Shown here: piece by piece, positions 4,874 through 23,814 of the stretch | How the letters are laid out: the number at the start of each line of letters is the position of its first letter | Numbering within the stretch: position 1 is the stretch's first letter | From: Dehalobacter restrictus DSM 9455 | Lineage (GTDB): Bacteria; Bacillota; Desulfitobacteriia; Desulfitobacteriales; Syntrophobotulaceae | Direction of reading: 5' to 3' | NCBI RefSeq assembly: GCF_000512895.1 | Contig: NZ_CP007033.1 | Coordinates: 774,001 to 838,000, forward strand | DNA length: 64,000 nt | The notes under the pieces: generated by a model | Told to the model about the DNA's origin: nothing | Database searches by the model: none | Seen by the model: only the letters and a program-made list of their open reading frames with translations | Made by a program: the position numbers and the translations under genes

Positions 4874-6254
4874 GGACGTTAAGAACGCAGAAGAAAATCG
4901 CACTAATAAAAAAGAGATGAGTCGAAGAAGTTTTCTGTTAGGTAGTACCGCTTTAGCTGCAACTGCTGGTGTTTTGGCTGCAACTGCAATTCCTGGCGTA
5001 GCTAAAGCAGCAGAGCTCGGCTACAAGGTGAATTATGAAAAAGGAAAACCCGGGCAATGGTCTATGCTGAAACCGGAAGCGGACTATGGTGGGATTAGTG
5101 TAAACTACGTTAATAATAACAAAGAATGGTTAGGTTCTACGCAAATTGTTGGGGAGATACCGAGGTTACGGCAGTATGACGGCGGTTTTAATAGGGCATT
5201 ACGTAATGAGCTGGGACCGAAAGCAAAATACGGTATACTCAGCTTTGATTTCCGTCGCTATCCGCTGGCTACCGGAACTGCAACTGTTCAAAACAATTTA
5301 GTTACACTTTGTGAAGGCAAACCGGCACAAGACAAATTGCCTATTCCTGACCCGGAAAAAATGTCTATGAACATTAAAGACGTTGCCTATTTTTTAAATG
5401 CCGACGAAGTTGGCATAGGATTGACACCGGAGTTCGCCCCTTGGGAAACCATGGTTACAGATAAGCCTGGTATGATAGCAGGAAAGCCTTACGAAGAAGT
5501 TTGTAAGCCTAATGTTGTAAGTGCTGCCACTCATCCATATACCATTTGTGTATCGGTTGATAAACATCTGGAAACATTTTTGGGATCTACCGGCTACGAC
5601 GGTATCGCCAATTCTCAATCCAACAGAGCAACAATGATACTATCAGGAATTGTCACTTCCATAGCCGCATATATCAGAGCTCTCGGTTACGAAGCTGTTG
5701 CTTCTCACCAGGGAAAAGAATATGTTATTATCCCTCCGGTTGCTATTGCCAGCGGTCTTGGTGAACAACCCAGGGTACCTCAGGGGGTAGCTCATCCCAG
5801 ACTAGGGTTTAGACACATGATTGCCTGTGTTTCGACAAATCTTCCGCTAGCTCCTGATAAACCTATTGAATTTGGCGCAAAGGACTTCTGCCGTGTATGT
5901 AAAAAATGTGCCCAAACCTGTCCTGCTCAGGCCATCAGCTATGATGATGATGAAATAGTTCATAATGGCTATAAGCGATGGGATTTTAATCTGGACGCTT
6001 GTATACATTTCAGAGCTGAAAATGAAGAAGGTGTCTGCTGTGCCCAATGTATGAAGGTCTGCCCCTGGAACTCCAAGGAAGACTCCTGGTTCCATAAAGC
6101 GGGTATTACAATCGGCGCAAGCGGTCGTACATCTGCAAATCTACTGGTTAAAATTGACGATATGTTTGGGTATGGCACAGAGGTCATTCCAAGGTTTAAG
6201 TGGTGGCTTGAGTGGCCGGAATTATACAAAATTAAAATCCCGACTAATAACTAA
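4866..6254 (+). CDS. rdhA: RdhA1, reductive dehalogenase catalytic subunit (462 aa)
   Basis: A corrinoid/iron-sulfur reductive dehalogenase, the terminal reductase of organohalide respiration. It has a twin-arginine signal (SRRSFLLG at about residue 20, then an alanine-rich stretch ending VAKAA), a KPGQWSMLKP block, and two Fe-S motifs: [12 protein letters not shown] and [12 protein letters not shown]. The KEDSWFH and DDMFGYGTE blocks and the WWLEWPE ending match the CprA branch (chlorophenol reductases), though this copy is more diverged than those downstream. The start is a GTG overlapping rdhB. The substrate cannot be told from sequence. Confidence 0.92.
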   Translation: MNKDVKNAEENRTNKKEMSRRSFLLGSTALAATAGVLAATAIPGVAKAAELGYKVNYEKGKPGQWSMLKPEADYGGISVNYVNNNKEWLGSTQIVGEIPRLRQYDGGFNRALRNELGPKAKYGILSFDFRRYPLATGTATVQNNLVTLCEGKPAQDKLPIPDPEKMSMNIKDVAYFLNADEVGIGLTPEFAPWETMVTDKPGMIAGKPYEEVCKPNVVSAATHPYTICVSVDKHLETFLGSTGYDGIANSQSNRATMILSGIVTSIAAYIRALGYEAVASHQGKEYVIIPPVAIASGLGEQPRVPQGVAHPRLGFRHMIACVSTNLPLAPDKPIEFGAKDFCRVCKKCAQTCPAQAISYDDDEIVHNGYKRWDFNLDACIHFRAENEEGVCCAQCMKVCPWNSKEDSWFHKAGITIGASGRTSANLLVKIDDMFGYGTEVIPRFKWWLEWPELYKIKIPTNN

Positions 6255-15300: not shown

Positions 15301-16521
15301 GTGATTAAGATCATTGCTATATTGACATTAGTAATTTCATTATTTGTTAGTTGGGTGATACCCGAAAAAGATTTGCTGCCATTTGCCAAAGAAGTCCTTC
15401 CTCAAGCCCAATCCTTCCAAAAGGTCACGTCTTCTCCCCTAACATATGAGGGAATAGTTCAAGGGAGAGATGGAAAGATGCAAAGAGTTGGCTATGTAGT
15501 CATTGATCAGGCAGTGGGTTATGGCGGCCCGATTAAGATGGCTACAGGAATTGATTTGAAAGGGAAAATTCAAAAAGCAATTATTGTAAACTATAAAGAT
15601 ACACCTTCTTTTGTTCAGATGGTTTTGAAACATGGCTATCTAAAGCAGTTTATTGGCAAGGACATTACTAAACCATTGAACATTGAAAAAGATATTGATC
15701 GTGTCTCTGGGGCAACTTATACCTCCCGCGGAATAGCTAAGGCAATCTCCCAAGGAAGTCACGCTGTAGCAAGAACCCAGTTTAAATTGAATGTTTCGGA
15801 TGAGGAAGTTGCTTTTAAGTTTGGTGCAAAAGAGATATCTGTACTGTTGCTCGTTATTTTGATGCTAATTGGGGTTGTATTAAAAAACAAAAAATTAAGA
15901 TGGGTAACCTTAATTGGTAGCCTAATATTTATAGGCTTCAAATTTAACACTCCTTTTTCTCTGGCTAACGTGGCGGCACTATTAATGGGTAATTTCCCTT
16001 CCATTCGGGAAAACTTGGTCTGGTATATTCTGATAATCGGTATCCCAATTATTACCTTTGTGGCCGGTAGGAACCTCTATTGCTTCTGGCTTTGTCCTTT
16101 TGGTGCTTTGCAGGAAATTTTAAGTAAGATAGGTGGGGGCAGTTTTACGTGCTGTAACAAAAAAATAGAAACAAAAGCCTCTAAGATCAAATATGCCTTG
16201 GTATATTTTGCATTATTGGCTGCCATCTTGCTTCAATCTCCCGGCTTTGCTGGTTATGAGCCTTATTCAACTTTATTTGGGTTACAAGGTTTTGGCGTTG
16301 CGTGGCTTATTCTACCCCTGGTAATCTTTCCATCACTTCTAATAAAGAGATTTTGGTGTCGATTTTTTTGTCCGGGGTTAATACTCAATGAGATCATTTT
16401 GCGTCCCAGGAAATATATTATGGGGATTTTAGAAAAAGGGTTCCCAGAAAAAGGGAAGTTTAAAAGGGTTTCGGAAATCAAAGGGACCAAAGGAATCGAG
16501 CAATTGAAGGAATCCAAGTAA
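15301..16521 (+). CDS. rdhC: RdhC2, NosR/NirI-like FMN-binding membrane protein (406 aa)
   Basis: A polytopic membrane protein with an external FMN-binding domain and two CX3CP motifs. The flavinylation motif SGATYTS is at about residues 136-142 and the motifs CFWLCPFGALQE and CRFFCPGLILNE lie in the membrane half. The family is thought to carry covalent FMN and to pass electrons to RdhA or act as a regulator. The only plausible start is a GTG at 15301 with a weak ribosome-binding site; an in-frame stop sits 12 bases upstream, so the protein is about seven residues shorter at its N-terminus than the RdhC copies downstream. Confidence 0.88.
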   Translation: MIKIIAILTLVISLFVSWVIPEKDLLPFAKEVLPQAQSFQKVTSSPLTYEGIVQGRDGKMQRVGYVVIDQAVGYGGPIKMATGIDLKGKIQKAIIVNYKDTPSFVQMVLKHGYLKQFIGKDITKPLNIEKDIDRVSGATYTSRGIAKAISQGSHAVARTQFKLNVSDEEVAFKFGAKEISVLLLVILMLIGVVLKNKKLRWVTLIGSLIFIGFKFNTPFSLANVAALLMGNFPSIRENLVWYILIIGIPIITFVAGRNLYCFWLCPFGALQEILSKIGGGSFTCCNKKIETKASKIKYALVYFALLAAILLQSPGFAGYEPYSTLFGLQGFGVAWLILPLVIFPSLLIKRFWCRFFCPGLILNEIILRPRKYIMGILEKGFPEKGKFKRVSEIKGTKGIEQLKESK

Positions 16522-16557
16522 GATTTATAAATGATTAAATAACATCGAGGTTAAAGT

Positions 16558-16665
16558 ATGAAAAGCAAATTAAGCATGGGGGATTTACTATTTATTGTAT
16601 TGGTATCCGCTGTTGCCATCATGATTGTGATAAGTGAATGGCAGGCTTATCAAGCTATCCCTTAG
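16558..16665 (+). CDS. RdhC-associated microprotein, 35 aa, one membrane segment
   Basis: A 35-codon ORF begins 36 bases after rdhC2, with a GAGG site 7 to 8 bases upstream of its ATG. The peptide opens with MKSKLSMGDLLFIVLVSAV, runs through one hydrophobic helix and ends ISEWQAYQAIP. Near-identical ORFs follow the other two rdhC genes at 35707 and 39916, so it is conserved as protein. I know of no named family. It could be a small subunit or stabiliser of the membrane complex of RdhB and RdhC. Confidence 0.75.
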   Translation: MKSKLSMGDLLFIVLVSAVAIMIVISEWQAYQAIP

Positions 16666-16771
16666 TCAAGTATCCAGCCAGCAATGCCGCTTTAATACTA
16701 TGAGCTTTTTTAGAGCTGATCCTGCCCACTATATCATACTGAAAACCGCCGAATAGCTTTTCTGACTACTA

Positions 16772-16810
16772 ACAAAAACAACTGACAAAAGTTTTGTCAG
16801 TTGTTTTTGT
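16772..16810. terminator. Strong bidirectional terminator after rdhABC operon
   Basis: A 19-bp perfect stem (arm ACAAAAACAACTGACAAAA) with a one-base loop, rich in A on one side and T on the other, can stop transcription from both directions. The 493-base gap between the microprotein and the next rdhK also holds a gerKA remnant (16903-16993) and the start of a direct repeat (17020). Confidence 0.85.
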
Positions 16811-16902
16811 GTCGCGGCCTAGCTAAGCACAAATTATTTAACTAGTGAAAGTCCAGTCGATCCATTGCCGTATAATGGTTATCTCAGTTGGTATATTAAT
16901 AT

Positions 16903-16993
16903 GTGCCGTCAATTGAAAATTTATCGAGCCTTCTTTCAAGCTCGGCCAGGATGTCTTTATTAGCCACACCCTCAATATAACAAATACACCCTT
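16903..16993 (-). pseudogene. Fragment of gerKA, reversed
   Basis: These 91 bases are the reverse complement of the intact gerKA gene at about 8969-9059, with only two or three mismatches. They encode the CICYIEGVANKDI region. There is no start, stop or flanking gerKA sequence. It marks a past rearrangement that left part of a germination gene beside the rdhK upstream region. Confidence 0.8.
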
Positions 16994-17158
16994 AGGAGCA
17001 TGTTGTCATGGCTTATTGGTGCGTACGGCATCGCAAAGCAAAATAAGTATAAATTGAAGAATTTTTCATAAATTAAGCTTATACTAAATTTATGATTATT
17101 GACACAAAAGCTTTGAAATAATTGATAAAAAGGAAATTGTAAGAAAGGAGCGGGAATT

Positions 17159-17878
17159 ATGCAAGAGAATTTCGAAAAATGGAGGGTGGGTATTCCAGAT
17201 ACATTTTATCCGATAAGCGAATTGCAGAAGTATGTTGAATACGGCACAGTCAAATCTTACTTAAAAGATAGTTTAGTTGTTTTACCGGGTGAAGTAATCC
17301 ATAAATTTATCTATGTGCTTACCGGTAAATTGCAAGTAAACTTTCTGTTCAGCGATGGACGAGAACGAATGGTTTATTTTGGCGGGGAACATTGTATGTT
17401 CAACTATTTATTTCAACATAACTCCGACAATCGTATGGCGGCTTATATTGTAGCCTTAGAAGACAGCCAACTATGTTTTTTTTCTTGGGAACAGCTTGAA
17501 AAGATTTTTCATATGGACGGAAATCTTCTCTTTGAAATAATGAAAAATGAGAATGCCAAAGGCAATTTCTTTATGAAACAGGCGGCAGAGATGGACTTTT
17601 TAAACCCGACAATACGGATTGTGAAATTGATTTATCAATTATGCGTTTCTCAGGGGAAGCCTGTTAATAATCATATCGAGGTCAACATTAATTTACCCTT
17701 GAGAGATATTTCTGAAATAACCGGAGCTCATTATGCAACCGTCTCCAAAGTATTCTGCACGCTGAATAAGCTTCATATTTTAGATAAGAAGAGAGACAGG
17801 ATCGTTATTTTTGATATCAGAAAGCTGGAAGAATTAACACAAGAAACACAATTATTCAAACATGATGGCACTAATTAA
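17159..17878 (+). CDS. rdhK: RdhK, CprK-type Crp/Fnr activator (239 aa)
   Basis: CprK-like opening (IPDTFYPISELQKYVEYGTV), sensor domain (VVLPGEVIHKFIYVLTGKL) and recognition region ISEITGAHYATVSKVF. It is nearly identical to the copy at 22654, but one residue in the recognition helix differs (A for V in HY-A/V-TVSK). In CprK the valine at this place contacts DNA, so operator preference or strength might differ. It starts with ATG, 8 bases after AAAGGAG. Downstream lies an intact dehalobox promoter with no rdhBA behind it. Confidence 0.88.
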   Translation: MQENFEKWRVGIPDTFYPISELQKYVEYGTVKSYLKDSLVVLPGEVIHKFIYVLTGKLQVNFLFSDGRERMVYFGGEHCMFNYLFQHNSDNRMAAYIVALEDSQLCFFSWEQLEKIFHMDGNLLFEIMKNENAKGNFFMKQAAEMDFLNPTIRIVKLIYQLCVSQGKPVNNHIEVNINLPLRDISEITGAHYATVSKVFCTLNKLHILDKKRDRIVIFDIRKLEELTQETQLFKHDGTN

Positions 17879-17919
17879 TTAGCATTTGTAAAATATTATC
17901 ATTTATAGAATGATTATTT

Positions 17920-17961
17920 TCAATTTAAACTGAATCATTTAATTATCTTATTTTGTACAAT
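17920..17961 (+). promoter_or_regulatory. Orphaned dehalobox promoter
   Basis: TCAAT-TTAA-ACTGA (17920-17933) has its centre 29.5 bp before the -10 element TACAAT (17956-17961), the same layout as the promoters at 23411 and 25442. Here the rdhB gene that should follow is missing and an rdhK fragment has taken its place. Confidence 0.7.
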
Positions 17962-18006
17962 GTACCTAGTCATCCGATTGACCAAACCGCTAAAAGAGGA
18001 GGCGAA

Positions 18007-18370
18007 TTAGTTGTTTTACCGGGTGAAGTAATCCATAAATTTATCTATGTGCTTACCGGTAAATTGCAAGTAAACTTTCTATTCAGCGATGGACGAGAAC
18101 GAATGGTTTGTTTTGGCGGCAAACATTGTATGTTCAACTATTTATTTCAATACAACTCCGACAATACGGATTGTGAAATTGATTTATTAATTATGCGTTT
18201 CTCAGGGAAAGCCTGTTAATCAAATCGAGGTCAACATTAATTTACCCCCTTGAGAGATATTTCTGAAATAACCGGAGCTCATTATGTAACCGTCTCCAAA
18301 GTATCCTGCACGCTGAATAAGCTTCATATTTTAGATAAGAAGAGAGACAAAAGGAACACAATTATTCAAA
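18007..18370 (+). pseudogene. Chimeric rdhK pseudogene fused to an rdhB leader
   Basis: The sequence follows rdhK (17159) from codon 38 on, but the start is replaced by the leader and ribosome-binding site of an rdhB gene. About 180 bases are lost between two copies of CCGACAAT, an extra C shifts the frame in the run ACCCCC, and the 3' end is deleted. In-frame stops interrupt the rest. The first 88 codons can still be read from an ATG at 17953, so a truncated sensor-domain peptide is possible but unlikely to work. Confidence 0.85.
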
Positions 18371-18407
18371 ACCAGAAAAACAAAGTATTACTGGAGGTAG
18401 ATTATTC

Positions 18408-19211
18408 ATGATCATCATTGGAGAAAAAATCAACGGCGCCATCCCTTCCGTAGCGAGAGCAATCGCTGAAAAGGATGCAGGGTTCATTCGAAACCTTGCC
18501 AAAATCCAATCCGATGCCGGCGCGGATTTTATTGATGTCTGTGCATCCACGGACGTCGGAATTGAACTCGAAACCTTAAAATGGCTGATCGACCTGGTAC
18601 AGGAAGTGAGCGACACCCCAATTTGTATCGACAGCCCGCATGCTCAGACCTGCGTGGATGCGATTCAATTCTGCAAACGTCCGGGACTCATTAACTCTGT
18701 ATCCGGCGAAGGTGACAAGATTGATGTCGTATTCCCGGTTATTGCTGATACTAAATGGGAATGCGTTGCGCTTCTTTGTGATGACAGCGGAATTTCCAAG
18801 ACTGCGGAGAAACGTCTCGAAGTATTTGCAAACATCATGAAAAGAGCTAAAGAATTCAATATTGCCCCGTCCCGTCTGCACATTGATCCGCTGGTCGAAA
18901 TGCTCTGCACTTCGGAAGAAGGCATCAACATGATTGTTGACGTAATCAGAGAGATTAAAAGACAGTATCCGGCAATTCACATTACCGGCGGATTCAGCAA
19001 TATTTCGTTTAACTTGCCTGCTAGGAAGCTTGTCAATCAGGCCTTCTGCGTTCTGGCAATGAACGCCGGCATGGACAGCGGGATCCTTGACCCGACGAAT
19101 CAGGATTTGGTTGGTATGATCTTTGCGACGGAAGCTCTCTTAGGTCAGGATGAATATTGCATGGAATATATTAGCGCCTTCAGGGAAGGACGTTTTGGTC
19201 AGAAAAAATAG
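18408..19211 (+). CDS. Pterin-binding methyltransferase, MtrH/AcsE family (267 aa)
   Basis: A TIM-barrel methyltransferase of the dihydropteroate-synthase-like type that moves a methyl group between a corrinoid protein and tetrahydrofolate (MT2 role). The opening IIIGEKINGAIPSVARAI, then GADFIDVCAS, ICIDSPHAQ and HITGGFSNISFNLP are typical. It has a clear GGAGG site and is followed by a corrinoid protein and a UroD-type methyltransferase, forming a three-component methyl transfer system. It feeds methyl groups to the folate branch of the Wood-Ljungdahl pathway if the direction is catabolic (inference). Confidence 0.85.
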   Translation: MIIIGEKINGAIPSVARAIAEKDAGFIRNLAKIQSDAGADFIDVCASTDVGIELETLKWLIDLVQEVSDTPICIDSPHAQTCVDAIQFCKRPGLINSVSGEGDKIDVVFPVIADTKWECVALLCDDSGISKTAEKRLEVFANIMKRAKEFNIAPSRLHIDPLVEMLCTSEEGINMIVDVIREIKRQYPAIHITGGFSNISFNLPARKLVNQAFCVLAMNAGMDSGILDPTNQDLVGMIFATEALLGQDEYCMEYISAFREGRFGQKK

Positions 19212-19300
19212 TTGTAAGCGCTGGCTCATCAAACAGGCATTCAATCAGAGAATTGTTATTCAATCTATTCAGAATAAAATTTTAAGGGGGATTATAAGAA

Positions 19301-19936
19301 ATGGCTAAAATTGAAGAAGTCAAAGCAATGGTAGAGGCAGGAAAAGCAAAACTTGTTCCTGGATTGGTCCAGGAAGCGCTCGATGAAGGAAGCGCAGCAA
19401 AAGATATTCTGCAGGCAATGGTAGGTTCGATGGGCGTTGTTGGGGACAAGTTCTCCACAGGCGAAATCTTCGTTCCTGAAATGCTAATGGCCGCCAAAGC
19501 GATGGCCAAAGGTGTTGATGTCTTGAAACCGCTGATGGCTGGCGACACCTCAAACTCCTTAGGTACCTGCATTATCGGAACCGTAGCAGGCGACCTGCAT
19601 GATATTGGTAAAAACCTTGTTTCTATGATGATCGAAAGTGCCGGGTTCACCGTGGTTGACCTCGGTGTAGACGTGCCGCATGAAAAATGGGTTGAAGCTA
19701 TCAAAGAAAATCAGAATGTTACTTTAGTGGCTTGTTCAGGACTTTTGACGACAACGATGCCAGCATTAAAGGAAGCCGTGCAAACGGTCAAGGCCAGTGG
19801 TTTGACAGGCTTTAAAGTTCTCGTCGGTGGTGCTCCTGTTACCCAGCAATTCGCTGATGAAATCAATGCCGATGGTTTTGCTCCTGATGCCGGCAGTGCT
19901 GCAGTGAAAGCTGCTGAGTTGGTAAAATCTTTATAA
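19301..19936 (+). CDS. Corrinoid-binding methyl carrier protein, MtaC/MtbC-like (211 aa)
   Basis: Residues about 1-85 form the helical cap domain (AAKDILQAMVGSMGVVGDKF, then FVPEMLMAAKAM). Residues about 88-211 form a B12-binding Rossmann domain with GDLHDIGKNLV (the DxHxxG motif that supplies the lower cobalt ligand), a CSGLLTTTM segment and VLVGGAPV. The protein is a typical 210-residue methyl carrier between an MT1 and an MT2. A GGGGG ribosome-binding site precedes the ATG. No reductive activase gene is found nearby; that function must be encoded elsewhere. Confidence 0.9.
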   Translation: MAKIEEVKAMVEAGKAKLVPGLVQEALDEGSAAKDILQAMVGSMGVVGDKFSTGEIFVPEMLMAAKAMAKGVDVLKPLMAGDTSNSLGTCIIGTVAGDLHDIGKNLVSMMIESAGFTVVDLGVDVPHEKWVEAIKENQNVTLVACSGLLTTTMPALKEAVQTVKASGLTGFKVLVGGAPVTQQFADEINADGFAPDAGSAAVKAAELVKSL

Positions 19937-19970
19937 GATGAAAAATCTTGCTAAAGGGAGGTAAATCAAT

Positions 19971-20951
19971 ATGACGCTGACTCAGAGAGAAAATTTTGAG
20001 ATCATGCTTAACGGAGGAAAACCGGAATTCGCCCCTTTGCTGTATGAACTATATAAAGTGTGCATGTTAGCAACGAATAATACAGACCAACCATGGCAAG
20101 GCGGGAAGGATCCGTTTGGCGTAAATTGGATAGCCACGGCTGAGGGAGTCATACCGGAGTCAGGAAAAATATTATTCGATGATATCGCTGATTGGAAAAA
20201 ATATGTAAAATTCCCTGATGTTGATTCTCTTGGAATTGAGCAGATGGCACAAATTGAATTGGCTGACTTTACTGACGGAAAAAGAAAGGAACAGCCGGTT
20301 GCAGTATTTAATGCATGTGGTCTCTTTGAACGGATGGCTGCATTTATGGGGTTTGAAAATACCTTATGTGCTTTGATTGAAGATCCGGATTCCTGTCATG
20401 AATTCTTTGCGGCAATGGCAGATTACAAAATCGCTTGTATAAACCGATATATCGACGCATATAAGCCGGATGTTATCATCTATTTTGATGACTTGGCAAC
20501 TGCTCGTGGGATGTTTATGTCACCAAAAACCTATCGCGAAGTCATTAAGCCGTACCACAAAAGAATCGTTGAGGCTGTGACTTCCCGTGGCGTTATCTTT
20601 AATCAACATACATGTGGGAAATGTGAAGATATTATCGAAGACTATGTTGAAATGGGTATTAAAATATGGGATGCTGCTCAGGTTTGTAATGATTTGGAGG
20701 GAATCTTGACGAAGTATCATGGCCGCTTAATTGTAGAAGGCGGTTGGGATACATCCGGACCTGCCAGTTATATTGGCGCTCCCGTAGAGGTGATCATTGA
20801 AGAAACGAAAAGATGTGCAGAACAATATGGAAAAAAAGGTAATTTCATACTGTTCCCAGTACTCATGAACGAAAAAGGGCATGCCTTTATGACCGGTGAC
20901 GAAAGAATTCCTGCGTTAATAATGACTTGGAATCAAGTCAATAAGTTATAA
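19971..20951 (+). CDS. UroD-family corrinoid methyltransferase (326 aa)
   Basis: A uroporphyrinogen-decarboxylase-like methyltransferase (MtaA/CmuA/MtvB superfamily). Such enzymes use a zinc site of the His-x-Cys type, and NQHTCGKCEDI at about residue 208 supplies it. DVIIYFDDLATARGMFMSP fits the family. As the only candidate MT1 in the cassette it should accept the primary methyl donor, perhaps a methoxyaromatic or a halomethane; O-demethylase and chloromethane or dichloromethane systems use related enzymes. The donor is not revealed by the sequence. Confidence 0.8.
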   Translation: MTLTQRENFEIMLNGGKPEFAPLLYELYKVCMLATNNTDQPWQGGKDPFGVNWIATAEGVIPESGKILFDDIADWKKYVKFPDVDSLGIEQMAQIELADFTDGKRKEQPVAVFNACGLFERMAAFMGFENTLCALIEDPDSCHEFFAAMADYKIACINRYIDAYKPDVIIYFDDLATARGMFMSPKTYREVIKPYHKRIVEAVTSRGVIFNQHTCGKCEDIIEDYVEMGIKIWDAAQVCNDLEGILTKYHGRLIVEGGWDTSGPASYIGAPVEVIIEETKRCAEQYGKKGNFILFPVLMNEKGHAFMTGDERIPALIMTWNQVNKL

Positions 20952-20998
20952 TACACTTAATAGAATAAATATTTAAACCATCATTTAAGTGAAAGATT

Positions 20999-21037
20999 GC
21001 AAAATCCTCTGGATAATTTTATTCAAGGGGATTTTGC
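20999..21037 (+). terminator. Hairpin after the UroD-type methyltransferase gene
   Basis: GCAAAATCC and GGATTTTGC form a perfect 9-bp stem around a 21-base loop. The downstream sequence is mixed T and A, so it may be a partial terminator between the three-gene methyltransferase unit and the GTPase gene. Confidence 0.5.
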
Positions 21038-21123
21038 TTATATTCGAATAGCAAACAGATTTCTCTATATAAGTACTGGAGAGGGCTCAGAAGCACGATT
21101 ATACTGAAAAGGAGAGGGTTGCC

Positions 21124-21735
21124 ATCAAATTAATCATATTAAGCGGATTCTTGGGGTCAGGTAAAACCAGTGTGTTAATGCAGCTTGCAAGACATCTCGT
21201 TGAAACTTCTAATGGTAATGAGAACGACAAAAAGGTTGTAATCATAGAAAATGAAATCGGTACAGCCGGAATTGATAACCTTCTACTAGAGAATGAAGAT
21301 TTTACCGTCAAGAACCTTTTTGCCGGCTGCGCCTGCTGCACATCTTCGGCTAAACTTACGGATACAGTTGATTATCTTAGTAAGGAGTACAGCCCGGAAT
21401 GGATCATCATTGAGGCAACTGGGCTTGCTTTTCCGAGCAAAATAAAAAGCACGGTGGAGACCGAACTCGGGATGCAGGCCATGACGATTATTGTGGTAGA
21501 TGCCAAACGGTGGTTCCGATTGGTTGGTGCGATGGAAAACTTCGTCTCAGAGCAGCTGGAGGATACAAAGTCAGTGTTAGTTAACAAGATTGATTTGGTG
21601 GATGAAACGACAGTGGAAAAAGTACAGGAGAGTATCCAGAAATATAACCGGGATGCGTACTGTTATCCTATATCCGCTACTAACGAGCTTTCAGCCGGAT
21701 TTTGGAACGATTTATTTAAAAAGGCGGGGATATAA
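21124..21735 (+). CDS. G3E-family GTPase, CobW-like metallochaperone (about 203 aa)
   Basis: The P-loop is SGFLGSGKTS and the metal-binding CxCC motif is in AGCACCTSS; NKIDLVD is the G4 motif. The family inserts or carries Zn, Co or Ni. The natural N-terminus would be (M)KLIILSGFLGSGKT, but the first codon at 21124 is ATC, 9 bases after AAGGAG. A TTG at 21151 would delete half of the P-loop. A non-standard start, or loss of the ATG, is therefore likely. The protein is shorter than full CobW because the C-terminal domain is on the next ORF or missing. It may supply metal to the neighbouring methyltransferases. Confidence 0.75.
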   Translation: MKLIILSGFLGSGKTSVLMQLARHLVETSNGNENDKKVVIIENEIGTAGIDNLLLENEDFTVKNLFAGCACCTSSAKLTDTVDYLSKEYSPEWIIIEATGLAFPSKIKSTVETELGMQAMTIIVVDAKRWFRLVGAMENFVSEQLEDTKSVLVNKIDLVDETTVEKVQESIQKYNRDAYCYPISATNELSAGFWNDLFKKAGI

Positions 21736-21736
21736 A

Positions 21737-22192
21737 ATGGCACACGAACACCACGAACACCATGAACACGAAGGCCAAGCCTGTCAGTGCGGACACCACC
21801 ATGACGAGCAGCATGAACAGCATGAACAGCATGAGAAAACGGTGCTCTGCAATCAGGAAGAAATCACAGTTACCCACCATGAAGGAGCCGTCATTTTATC
21901 TACTGAACGTGTCATTGCCAAAGAATATTCGTGGGTAAGAGATAGGCTCAACAAAGAGCTACAGTCCTTAGCCGGTTGGGTTGAAGATCAGGGAGGGCTT
22001 GTGGGGCATATCAAGGCTTTTCTTACTGAAACCGGCTATACCTGCATGCTATCCACGACAGGCGAAGATGTACAGATCAAGGAAACCTTGAAACCAAAAG
22101 TCACGGCCAAGATTACCCTGATAGTTTTTATTAACAATGAAAATGAATTATATTCTAAATTAGCAGAAACGTTAAAGAAATTAGTCAATTAA
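21737..22192 (+). CDS. Histidine-rich metal-binding protein (151 aa)
   Basis: The first 33 residues are mostly His, Glu and Gln (HEHHEHHEHEG, then CQCGHHHDEQHEQ), a probable metal store. Residues about 45-151 form a compact domain with IAKEYSWVRDRLNKELQ and a C-terminal KPKVTAKITLIVFIN strand, which I do not recognise. The ATG begins one base after the GTPase stop codon, so the two are coupled. The pair could work as GTPase plus metal-handling domain, standing in for the C-terminal half of a CobW protein. It may deliver zinc or cobalt to the methyltransferase cassette (inference). Confidence 0.7.
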   Translation: MAHEHHEHHEHEGQACQCGHHHDEQHEQHEQHEKTVLCNQEEITVTHHEGAVILSTERVIAKEYSWVRDRLNKELQSLAGWVEDQGGLVGHIKAFLTETGYTCMLSTTGEDVQIKETLKPKVTAKITLIVFINNENELYSKLAETLKKLVN

Positions 22193-22228
22193 CTTTCCAG
22201 AAATTATGACGAGCGTAAAGATGATTTT

Positions 22229-22468
22229 CCTCCGGTAAACATTATAACTGTTTAAATTCTATCCCATGACTCAAAAAACTTAATCATGATATACTTTTTG
22301 GATAATCAGGTTCTAATATTAGGGTAAGCATTTGCACTGTGTTGCTCATAATATGAGGAAGATGGCAGTACTAACTGATAAAAGATGAGCTGAAAAAATT
22401 GGGCTAGATAGGTTAAGGGGACGTCGCGAAATAAAGTTTCGTTACGTCCCCTTCGTGGCCGTGTTTAA
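22229..22468 (+). repeat. Right inverted-repeat arm (IS remnant plus rdhT leader)
   Basis: Reverse complement of 7037-7292 with small indels. It carries the same hairpin at 22415-22453 and, on the plus strand, the transposase-like tail GKHLHCVAHNMRKMAV. At its left end it still holds the ribosome-binding region that precedes rdhT in the other copy, but no rdhT follows. The gene-free stretch 22193-22653 consists of this arm, a gerKA scrap and the start of a direct repeat. Confidence 0.75.
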
Positions 22469-22472
22469 CCAC

Positions 22473-22504
22473 ACCCTCAATATAACAAATACACCCTTTT
22501 GTAT
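22473..22504 (-). pseudogene. Short gerKA scrap, reversed
   Basis: Thirty-two bases encode KGCICYIEGV on the minus strand, matching the intact gerKA at about 8968. It is the same segment, further shortened, as the remnant at 16903-16993. Confidence 0.65.
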
Positions 22505-22653
22505 AATAGCCGGGACACTTAGGGTGTATTGGTGCGTACGGCATCGCAAAGCAAAATAAGTATGAATTGAAGAATTTTTCATTAATTAAGCCTATACTAA
22601 ATTTATGATTATTGACAAAAGGAAATTGCAAGAAAGGAGTGGGAATTGGAATT

Positions 22654-23373
22654 ATGCAGGAGAATTTTGAAAAATGGAGGGTGGGTATTCCAGATACATT
22701 TTATCCAATAAACGAATTGCAGAAGTATGTTGAATACGGCACAGTCAAATCTTACTTAAAAGATAGTTTAGTTGTTTCACCGGGTGAAGTAATCCATAAA
22801 TTTATCTATGTGCTTACCGGTAAATTGCAAGTAAACTTTCTGTTCAGCGATGGACGAGAACGAATGGTTTATTTTGGCGGCAAACATTGTATGTTCAACT
22901 ATTTATTTCAATATAACTCCGACAATCATATGGCGGCTTATATTGTAGCCTTAGAAGACAGCCAACTATGTTTTTTTTCTTGGGAACAGCTTGAAAAGAT
23001 TTTTCATATGGACGAAAATCTTTTCTTTGAAATAATGAGAAATGAGAGCGCCAAATGCAATTTCTTTATGAAACAGGCAGCCGAGATGGACTTTTTAAAT
23101 CCGACAATAAGGATTGTGAAATTGATTTATCAATTATGCGTTTCTCAGGGGAAGCCTGTTAATAATCATATCGAGATCAACATTAATTTACCCTTGAGAG
23201 ATATTTCTGAAATAACCGGAGCTCATTATGTAACCGTCTCCAAAGTATTCTGCACGCTGAACACGCTTCATATTTTAGATAAGAAGAGAGACAAGATCGT
23301 TATTTTTGATATCAGAAAGCTGGAAGAATTGACACAAGAAACACAATTATTCAAACATGAGGGCACTAATTAG
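22654..23373 (+). CDS. rdhK: RdhK, CprK-type Crp/Fnr activator (239 aa)
   Basis: Nearly identical to the protein at 17159, with the CprK-like opening IPDTFYPINELQKYVEYGTV and the recognition region ISEITGAHYVTVSKVF, which has the CprK-type valine. A 6-base GGAATT duplication lengthens the gap between the AAAGGAG site and the ATG compared with the other copy, which may lower translation. It lies directly upstream of a tandem pair of rdhBA units with TCAAT-type dehaloboxes and is the obvious candidate activator for them. Confidence 0.88.
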   Translation: MQENFEKWRVGIPDTFYPINELQKYVEYGTVKSYLKDSLVVSPGEVIHKFIYVLTGKLQVNFLFSDGRERMVYFGGKHCMFNYLFQYNSDNHMAAYIVALEDSQLCFFSWEQLEKIFHMDENLFFEIMRNESAKCNFFMKQAAEMDFLNPTIRIVKLIYQLCVSQGKPVNNHIEININLPLRDISEITGAHYVTVSKVFCTLNTLHILDKKRDKIVIFDIRKLEELTQETQLFKHEGTN

Positions 23374-23410
23374 CATTTGTAAAATATTATCATTTATAAA
23401 ATGATTATTT

Positions 23411-23452
23411 TCAATTTAGACTGAATCATTTAATTATCTTATTTTGTACAAT
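23411..23452 (+). promoter_or_regulatory. Dehalobox and -10 element of rdhB3-rdhA3
   Basis: TCAAT-TTAG-ACTGA (23411-23424) is centred 29.5 bp before TACAAT (23447-23452). There is no good -35 hexamer, as expected for a class II activated promoter. Confidence 0.7.
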
Positions 23453-23498
23453 GTACCTAGTCATCCGCTTGACCAAATCGCTAAAAGAGGAGGTGAAA

Positions 23499-23814
23499 AT
23501 GATGGGTACATTGTTGATTTTTGTTGCTGGCGTGTTATTTTTAGCCGTCGATTCTTTTTATTAAACCTCGCGCCAAAATGGAGCAAATGTGGAGAACAGT
23601 AATTAACTGGGTCTTATTCGTGATTTGGTATGCTGTTACCTGGACGGGAATTTCCTTTATCTACATCAACGCATCCGTAGGGCATGTTAAAGCAACGAGT
23701 ACTGCAATATTCTTATTTGGAGGATTAGCTATCATCCTTGCAGTTGTACTGGCACGTTTGTTAGGCTTCATCACGATTGGAAAAACGAAAAAGACAAATA
23801 CTGAACAAGCTTGA
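23499..23814 (+). pseudogene. rdhB: RdhB3 with one-base frameshift
   Basis: The sequence nearly matches the intact rdhB at 25531 but has one extra base near 23545 (GCCGTCGATTC against GCCGCAATTC), after codon 15. The frame runs into a stop soon after. The rest of the reading frame, from KMEQMWRTVINW to the C-terminus, is intact. If the shift is real, RdhA3 would lose its membrane anchor unless the anchor encoded at 25531, which is nearly identical, replaces it. Confidence 0.8.

Follow-up and report, generated by a model that had tools for sequence, protein, structure and literature searches.

The reading of this locus that we favour, with moderate confidence, is that an intact rdhK gene (K1), the rdhB-type promoter that follows it (P1) and a set of methyltransferase genes form one regulatory unit, in which the decayed rdhK remnant lying between promoter and methyltransferase genes would be a transcribed but untranslated leader. 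This reading draws on the occurrence of the promoter three times in each of three of the five genomes of the genus, on the fusion and deletion that these three share, on the selection seen in K1 and the methyltransferase cassette as against the drifting remnant body, on the absence of terminator-like or other promoter-like sites in between, and on the precedent of the rdhUVWX genes discussed below. The window, by which we mean the whole analysed stretch of 64,000 bases, covers positions 774001–838000 of a genome assembled as one contig of 2,943,336 bases; coordinates are window positions, and the features of the locus all lie on the forward (+) strand. Five genus genomes were compared, the window's own included, and the locus was matched in three. 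In one of these (G002) it occupies a 5,284-base contig that ends in rdhK on both sides, so that its place beside other rdh genes is presumed.

The 131 bases at 17876–18006 are 96% identical to 23367–23497, which run from the end of a second intact rdhK (K2, 22654–23373) into rdhB. This copied leader retains the inverted repeat TTCAATTTAAACTGAA (the P1 box, 17919–17934), the −10 element TACAAT (17956–17961) and the AGGAGG (17997–18002) that served the lost rdhB start as ribosome-binding site, in agreement with the earlier note, which had described an rdhB-type promoter and ribosome-binding site as intact. The fusion into rdhK, which the same note had proposed, was located at 18006/18007, and only its codon needs correction, from 38 to 39: the first part of the remnant (18007–18165 of 18007–18370) matches 17273–17431 of K1 at 96%, and in the rdhK starting at 17159 codon 39 begins at 17273. 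The description of the promoter as an orphan is not supported as it was put, because K1 (17159–17878) ends 40 bases upstream of the P1 box, and regulator, promoter and operon can therefore be one unit.

A loss of about 180 bases between short repeats had also been claimed, and we measured it as 182 bases (17424 to 17606 of the intact copy), with both ends within CCGACAAT, the repeat that lies at 18158–18165 at the deletion point of the remnant. According to the alignment, the remnant in the window has in addition lost about 41 bases near 18347 and a further 3 bases, and has gained 2; homology to rdhK stops about 37 bases upstream of the ATG of the first methyltransferase gene (MT2). Each of the two junctions, that of the fusion and that of the 182-base deletion, was found exactly once in G000, G002 and G003, and in neither G001 nor G004, and neither gave a control match, which is more than chance would provide. 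The later lesions are private: in G003 they are losses of 37 and 4 bases and of two single bases, in G002 the loss of a single base, and the frameshifting indels private to each of the three genomes leave no conserved frame, as is expected of an rdhK pseudogene; the gene is thus broken, as had been said, by the deletion and also by frameshifting lesions that the earlier note had not listed. Since the fusion and the 182-base deletion are common to three of the five genomes and the later lesions are private, the fusion is old and the body does not code: both events predate the split of the three lineages, and the remnant body has drifted without a reading frame since then.

Searches for TTCAATTTARAYTGAA-N18-24-TACAAT gave exactly three matches per genome in the three genomes and none in the other two or in the controls. 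The three copies per genome are P1, before the remnant and the methyltransferase genes, and two copies before rdhBA operons, placed in the window by pattern match: P2 (23410–23425), upstream of the first rdhB, and P3 (25410–25456), upstream of the second. P3 has a double box, with a spacing of 31 bases or roughly three helical turns. From box to −10 element, 40 of the 43 columns are invariant over the nine copies and three vary. With a putative transcription start 7 bases after TACAAT, at about 17968 for P1, the centre of the box lies at −41.5, which is the position given for DB7 (PMC7062800). The earlier note had called the element a dehalobox, and the 5-4-5 inverted repeat supports this: the core is TCAAT-N4-AYTGA, with five of five arm pairs in P3 and four of five in P1 and P2, and a palindrome pairing 7 or more of 8 positions, with three registers allowed, would arise by chance with a probability of about 0.004 in sequence of this composition. 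However, the outer ends in that register are TC and GA, rather than the TT and AA that are called strictly conserved in the dehalobox (PMC2610375), and we therefore name the box a variant dehalobox and not a canonical one. We found no box differences that consistently paired K1 with P1 and K2 with P2; P1 and P2 share variants across the genomes.

K1 is an open reading frame for a CRP/FNR-type regulator whose nearest solved chains are those of CprK (E 3e-54); it has the CprK-like effector and HTH domains of an RdhK, and the lysine at its residue 134, which matches K133 of CprK, is retained in both K1 and K2. The two genes differ at 27 of 720 bases. Comparison of the window with G003 gave dN/dS values of 0.11 for K1 and 0.27 for K2, and K1 is under purifying selection. 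Eight nucleotide sites, all of them amino-acid-changing, are fixed by position between K1 and K2 in the window and G003 (codons 42, 77, 87, 124, 129, 132, 135 and 193); in G002, seven of the eight are N in a collapsed copy, and the one that is readable, codon 193, agrees with the pattern (GCA on the short contig, GTA on the other). Codons 132 and 135 of K1 align to residues 131 and 134 of CprK, two residues of the chlorine pocket, which is made up of 130, 131, 133 and 134 (PMC3638464), and codon 193, which specifies Ala in K1 and Val in K2, aligns to Val192 of CprK, a DNA-contact residue that sets a base preference (PMC2610375). The ratio of amino-acid to silent changes is 8:0 between positions compared with 20:25 within positions (Fisher p 0.005, from few sites). 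Five informative sites, on the other hand, group by genome instead of by position, which suggests that K1 and K2 have to some degree exchanged sequence, as partial gene conversion would give. A further proposal, which we put forward tentatively and consider rather doubtful, is that the two regulators specialised after duplication. K1, with its changed effector pocket and Ala at the Val192 position, would respond to another ligand, which may be a substrate or product of methylated or one-carbon type, and would govern the corrinoid methyltransferase operon by means of a promoter taken over from an rdhBA operon; if this were true, a rewired sensor would tie organohalide respiration to methyl-group metabolism.

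The cassette begins with MT2 (18408–19211), a methyltetrahydrofolate:corrinoid methyltransferase (NCBIfam NF005719, above cut-off) with its own ribosome-binding site, GGAGG (18393–18397), seen in all three genomes. It is followed by a corrinoid protein (19301–19936; Pfam B12-binding and B12-binding_2), a URO-D-fold methyltransferase (19971–20951; Pfam URO-D) that is weakly MtaA/CmuA-like (TIGR01463, E 3e-12, below cut-off), a CobW-type GTPase (21103–21735; Pfam cobW) and a histidine-rich protein without known family (21737–22192; no NCBIfam or Pfam match), which has a paralogue beside the second methyltransferase set. For MT2 dN/dS is 0.03–0.07, with 0.04 between the window and G003; the latter comparison gave 0.11 (corrinoid protein), 0.14 (URO-D protein) and 0.10 (CobW) for the other genes tested, and these four genes are under purifying selection. 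No ATG, GTG or TTG stands directly before the nucleotide-binding motif of the CobW-type gene (21103–21160) in the window or G003. The second, paralogous five-gene set lies without rdhK at 750–754 kb of the same genome, and is also present in G001. A search for clues to the substrate of the URO-D protein gave no relative of solved structure at E 0.01 and, in 73 genomes of the order, none beyond the genus at E 1e-70. Two other regions of the same genome (L184 and L186, 2.03–2.09 Mb) hold four corrinoid-protein/UroD pairs near rdh genes, the UroD frames of these rdhUVX-like pairs being 391–397 codons long; we named the pairs rdhUVX by gene order and place, not by comparison with the DCB-2 sequences, and their number compares with three rdhUVX copies stated in PMC9888536. 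The URO-D protein of the cassette was unmatched in both regions by tblastn at E 0.01, and we rejected the idea that the cassette is one of the published rdhUVX copies for this reason.

The rdh cluster of G001 contains, between rdhC and rdhK and next to a transposase, a 121-base remnant of MT2 (84%; in L142, at about 5439–5558 of the reverse complement), which suggests that MT2 was once present in that cluster too. In the window, a short stretch at 22332–22376, between the methyltransferase genes and K2, matches the terminal part of a transposase from G001 (80% over 15 residues, E 0.002). Both rdhBA operons of the window carry a frameshift, in the rdhB behind P2 (23503–23600) and in the rdhA behind P3 (25863–25910), and both genes have intact copies in G002 and G003; the intact rdhA of one operon and the intact rdhB of the other could still function together. 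Plasmid records gave no match.

The sequence shows that rdhK–promoter DNA was duplicated, the promoter fused to codon 39 of rdhK and the 182 bases lost between the short repeats, and the junctions held in common show that these events preceded the separation of the three lineages. If K1, P1 and the methyltransferase genes are indeed one unit, effector-bound RdhK (K1, and perhaps K2 also) would bind the box at −41.5, RNA polymerase would start near 17968 and read through a leader of about 440 nt, and the methyltransferase, corrinoid protein and URO-D-type protein would be translated from their own ribosome-binding sites. The methyltransferase operon would then be the third member of a small RdhK regulon, which otherwise consists of the two rdhBA operons and, because the same arrangement has been kept in three genomes, organohalide respiration and methyl-transfer pathways may share one chemical signal.

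The earlier note had supposed that the promoter could help to express the downstream genes, and we found nothing that would block such read-through: in the window, G003 and G002 alike, the coding strand from the promoter to the start of MT2 showed neither an intrinsic-terminator-like site nor a sigma-70-like site (9/12 bases). The promoter scan missed P1 as well, so that its silence between P1 and MT2 is weak evidence, and another promoter could escape it. The methyltransferase genes might use such an undetected promoter of their own, in the remnant or in the last 37 bases, with P1 and the remnant as harmless debris, an explanation we judge unlikely but deserving of serious weight. Weak promoters are common in AT-rich sequence, the paralogous set works without an adjacent rdhK, and P1 does not show the slower substitution that purifying selection would cause (3.2–4.8%, against 4.2–5.7% in the body, among the three genomes). 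Nevertheless, P1 is free of indels over 125 bases, whereas the body has five or six per genome pair, the last 40 bases are unlike any other leader compared by eye, and the three genomes agree in having no promoter-like site in between.

That P1 fires but its transcript ends inside the untranslated remnant, so that the methyltransferase genes gain little, seems to us quite improbable. Rho acts on long untranslated stretches, and the approximately 440 nt without conserved frame that follow the lost rdhB start are such a setting; against early termination, no intrinsic terminator was found, as noted above, and no unusual fold (z −0.42). We consider it very improbable indeed that the remnant has a product of its own, be it a regulatory RNA or a truncated protein of RdhK type. 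A protein would be favoured by the open stretches, which reach 88 and 53 codons in the window copy and 110 codons in G002, but the three genomes do not share their frameshifts and stops, and on this ground a protein was rejected; a structured, riboswitch-like leader was rejected in turn because of the ordinary fold and because 16500–23600 gave no Rfam match at gathering score. What counts against the one-unit reading itself is that the substitution rates do not show P1 to change more slowly than the body, that the leader may be cut short by Rho, that the ends of the box are not the strict ones and that K1 and K2 have to some degree exchanged sequence. We nevertheless prefer it, and the interpretation in the earlier note is, taken as a whole, partly supported.

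Up to 22 RdhK proteins are reported for D. restrictus (PMC7062800), and Dehalobacter RdhK regulons are little charted. If our reading is correct, the locus provides an RdhK regulon with a defined set of three target promoters that includes non-dehalogenase genes, and shows a regulatory link arising by duplication and decay. Nature also provides in K1 and K2 two almost identical regulators, set apart by eight fixed differences, that are suited to mapping the residues of effector specificity.

Several known systems resemble parts of the locus. The dcrA cluster of Dehalobacter strain DCA likewise has a broken rdhK-type gene beside genes that are still expressed (PMC4751268); its crp/fnr regulator, however, is described as disrupted by a transposase, recently and without a fused promoter, unlike the remnant here. 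A one-carbon cassette also adjoins a reductive dehalogenase in Dehalobacter in the case of the mec cassette by the acdA dehalogenase, but this comprises ten genes and is borne by a mobile island that lies outside the RDase clusters (PMC11578063), a distinction drawn from its published description. The locus resembles the CprK and RdhK6 systems in the CprK-like sequence of K1, the predicted placing of the box at −41.5 and the conserved K133 lysine (PMC7062800, PMC2610375, PMC3638464), and departs from those systems in the TC/GA ends of the box and in the Val192 position, Ala in K1 and Val in K2. In gene content the cassette resembles rdhUVWX of the rdh-5 cluster of Desulfitobacterium hafniense DCB-2, where corrinoid protein, UroD and methyltransferase genes lie behind a dehalobox and are co-induced with their rdh cluster (PMC9888536), and the possibility that an RdhK may control methyltransferase-like genes has already been published for D. 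hafniense. In contrast to rdhUVWX, the cassette here has another gene order and includes CobW and the histidine-rich protein, its URO-D protein does not match the rdhUVX-type UroD frames of the same genome, which are longer, and the promoter arrives by way of a decayed rdhK; PMC9888536 lists three rdhUVX copies in D. restrictus, and these lie elsewhere. Our literature searches found no description of this fusion and, as far as they show, it is the capture of the promoter through a decayed rdhK, together with the different cassette, that is new in the present locus.
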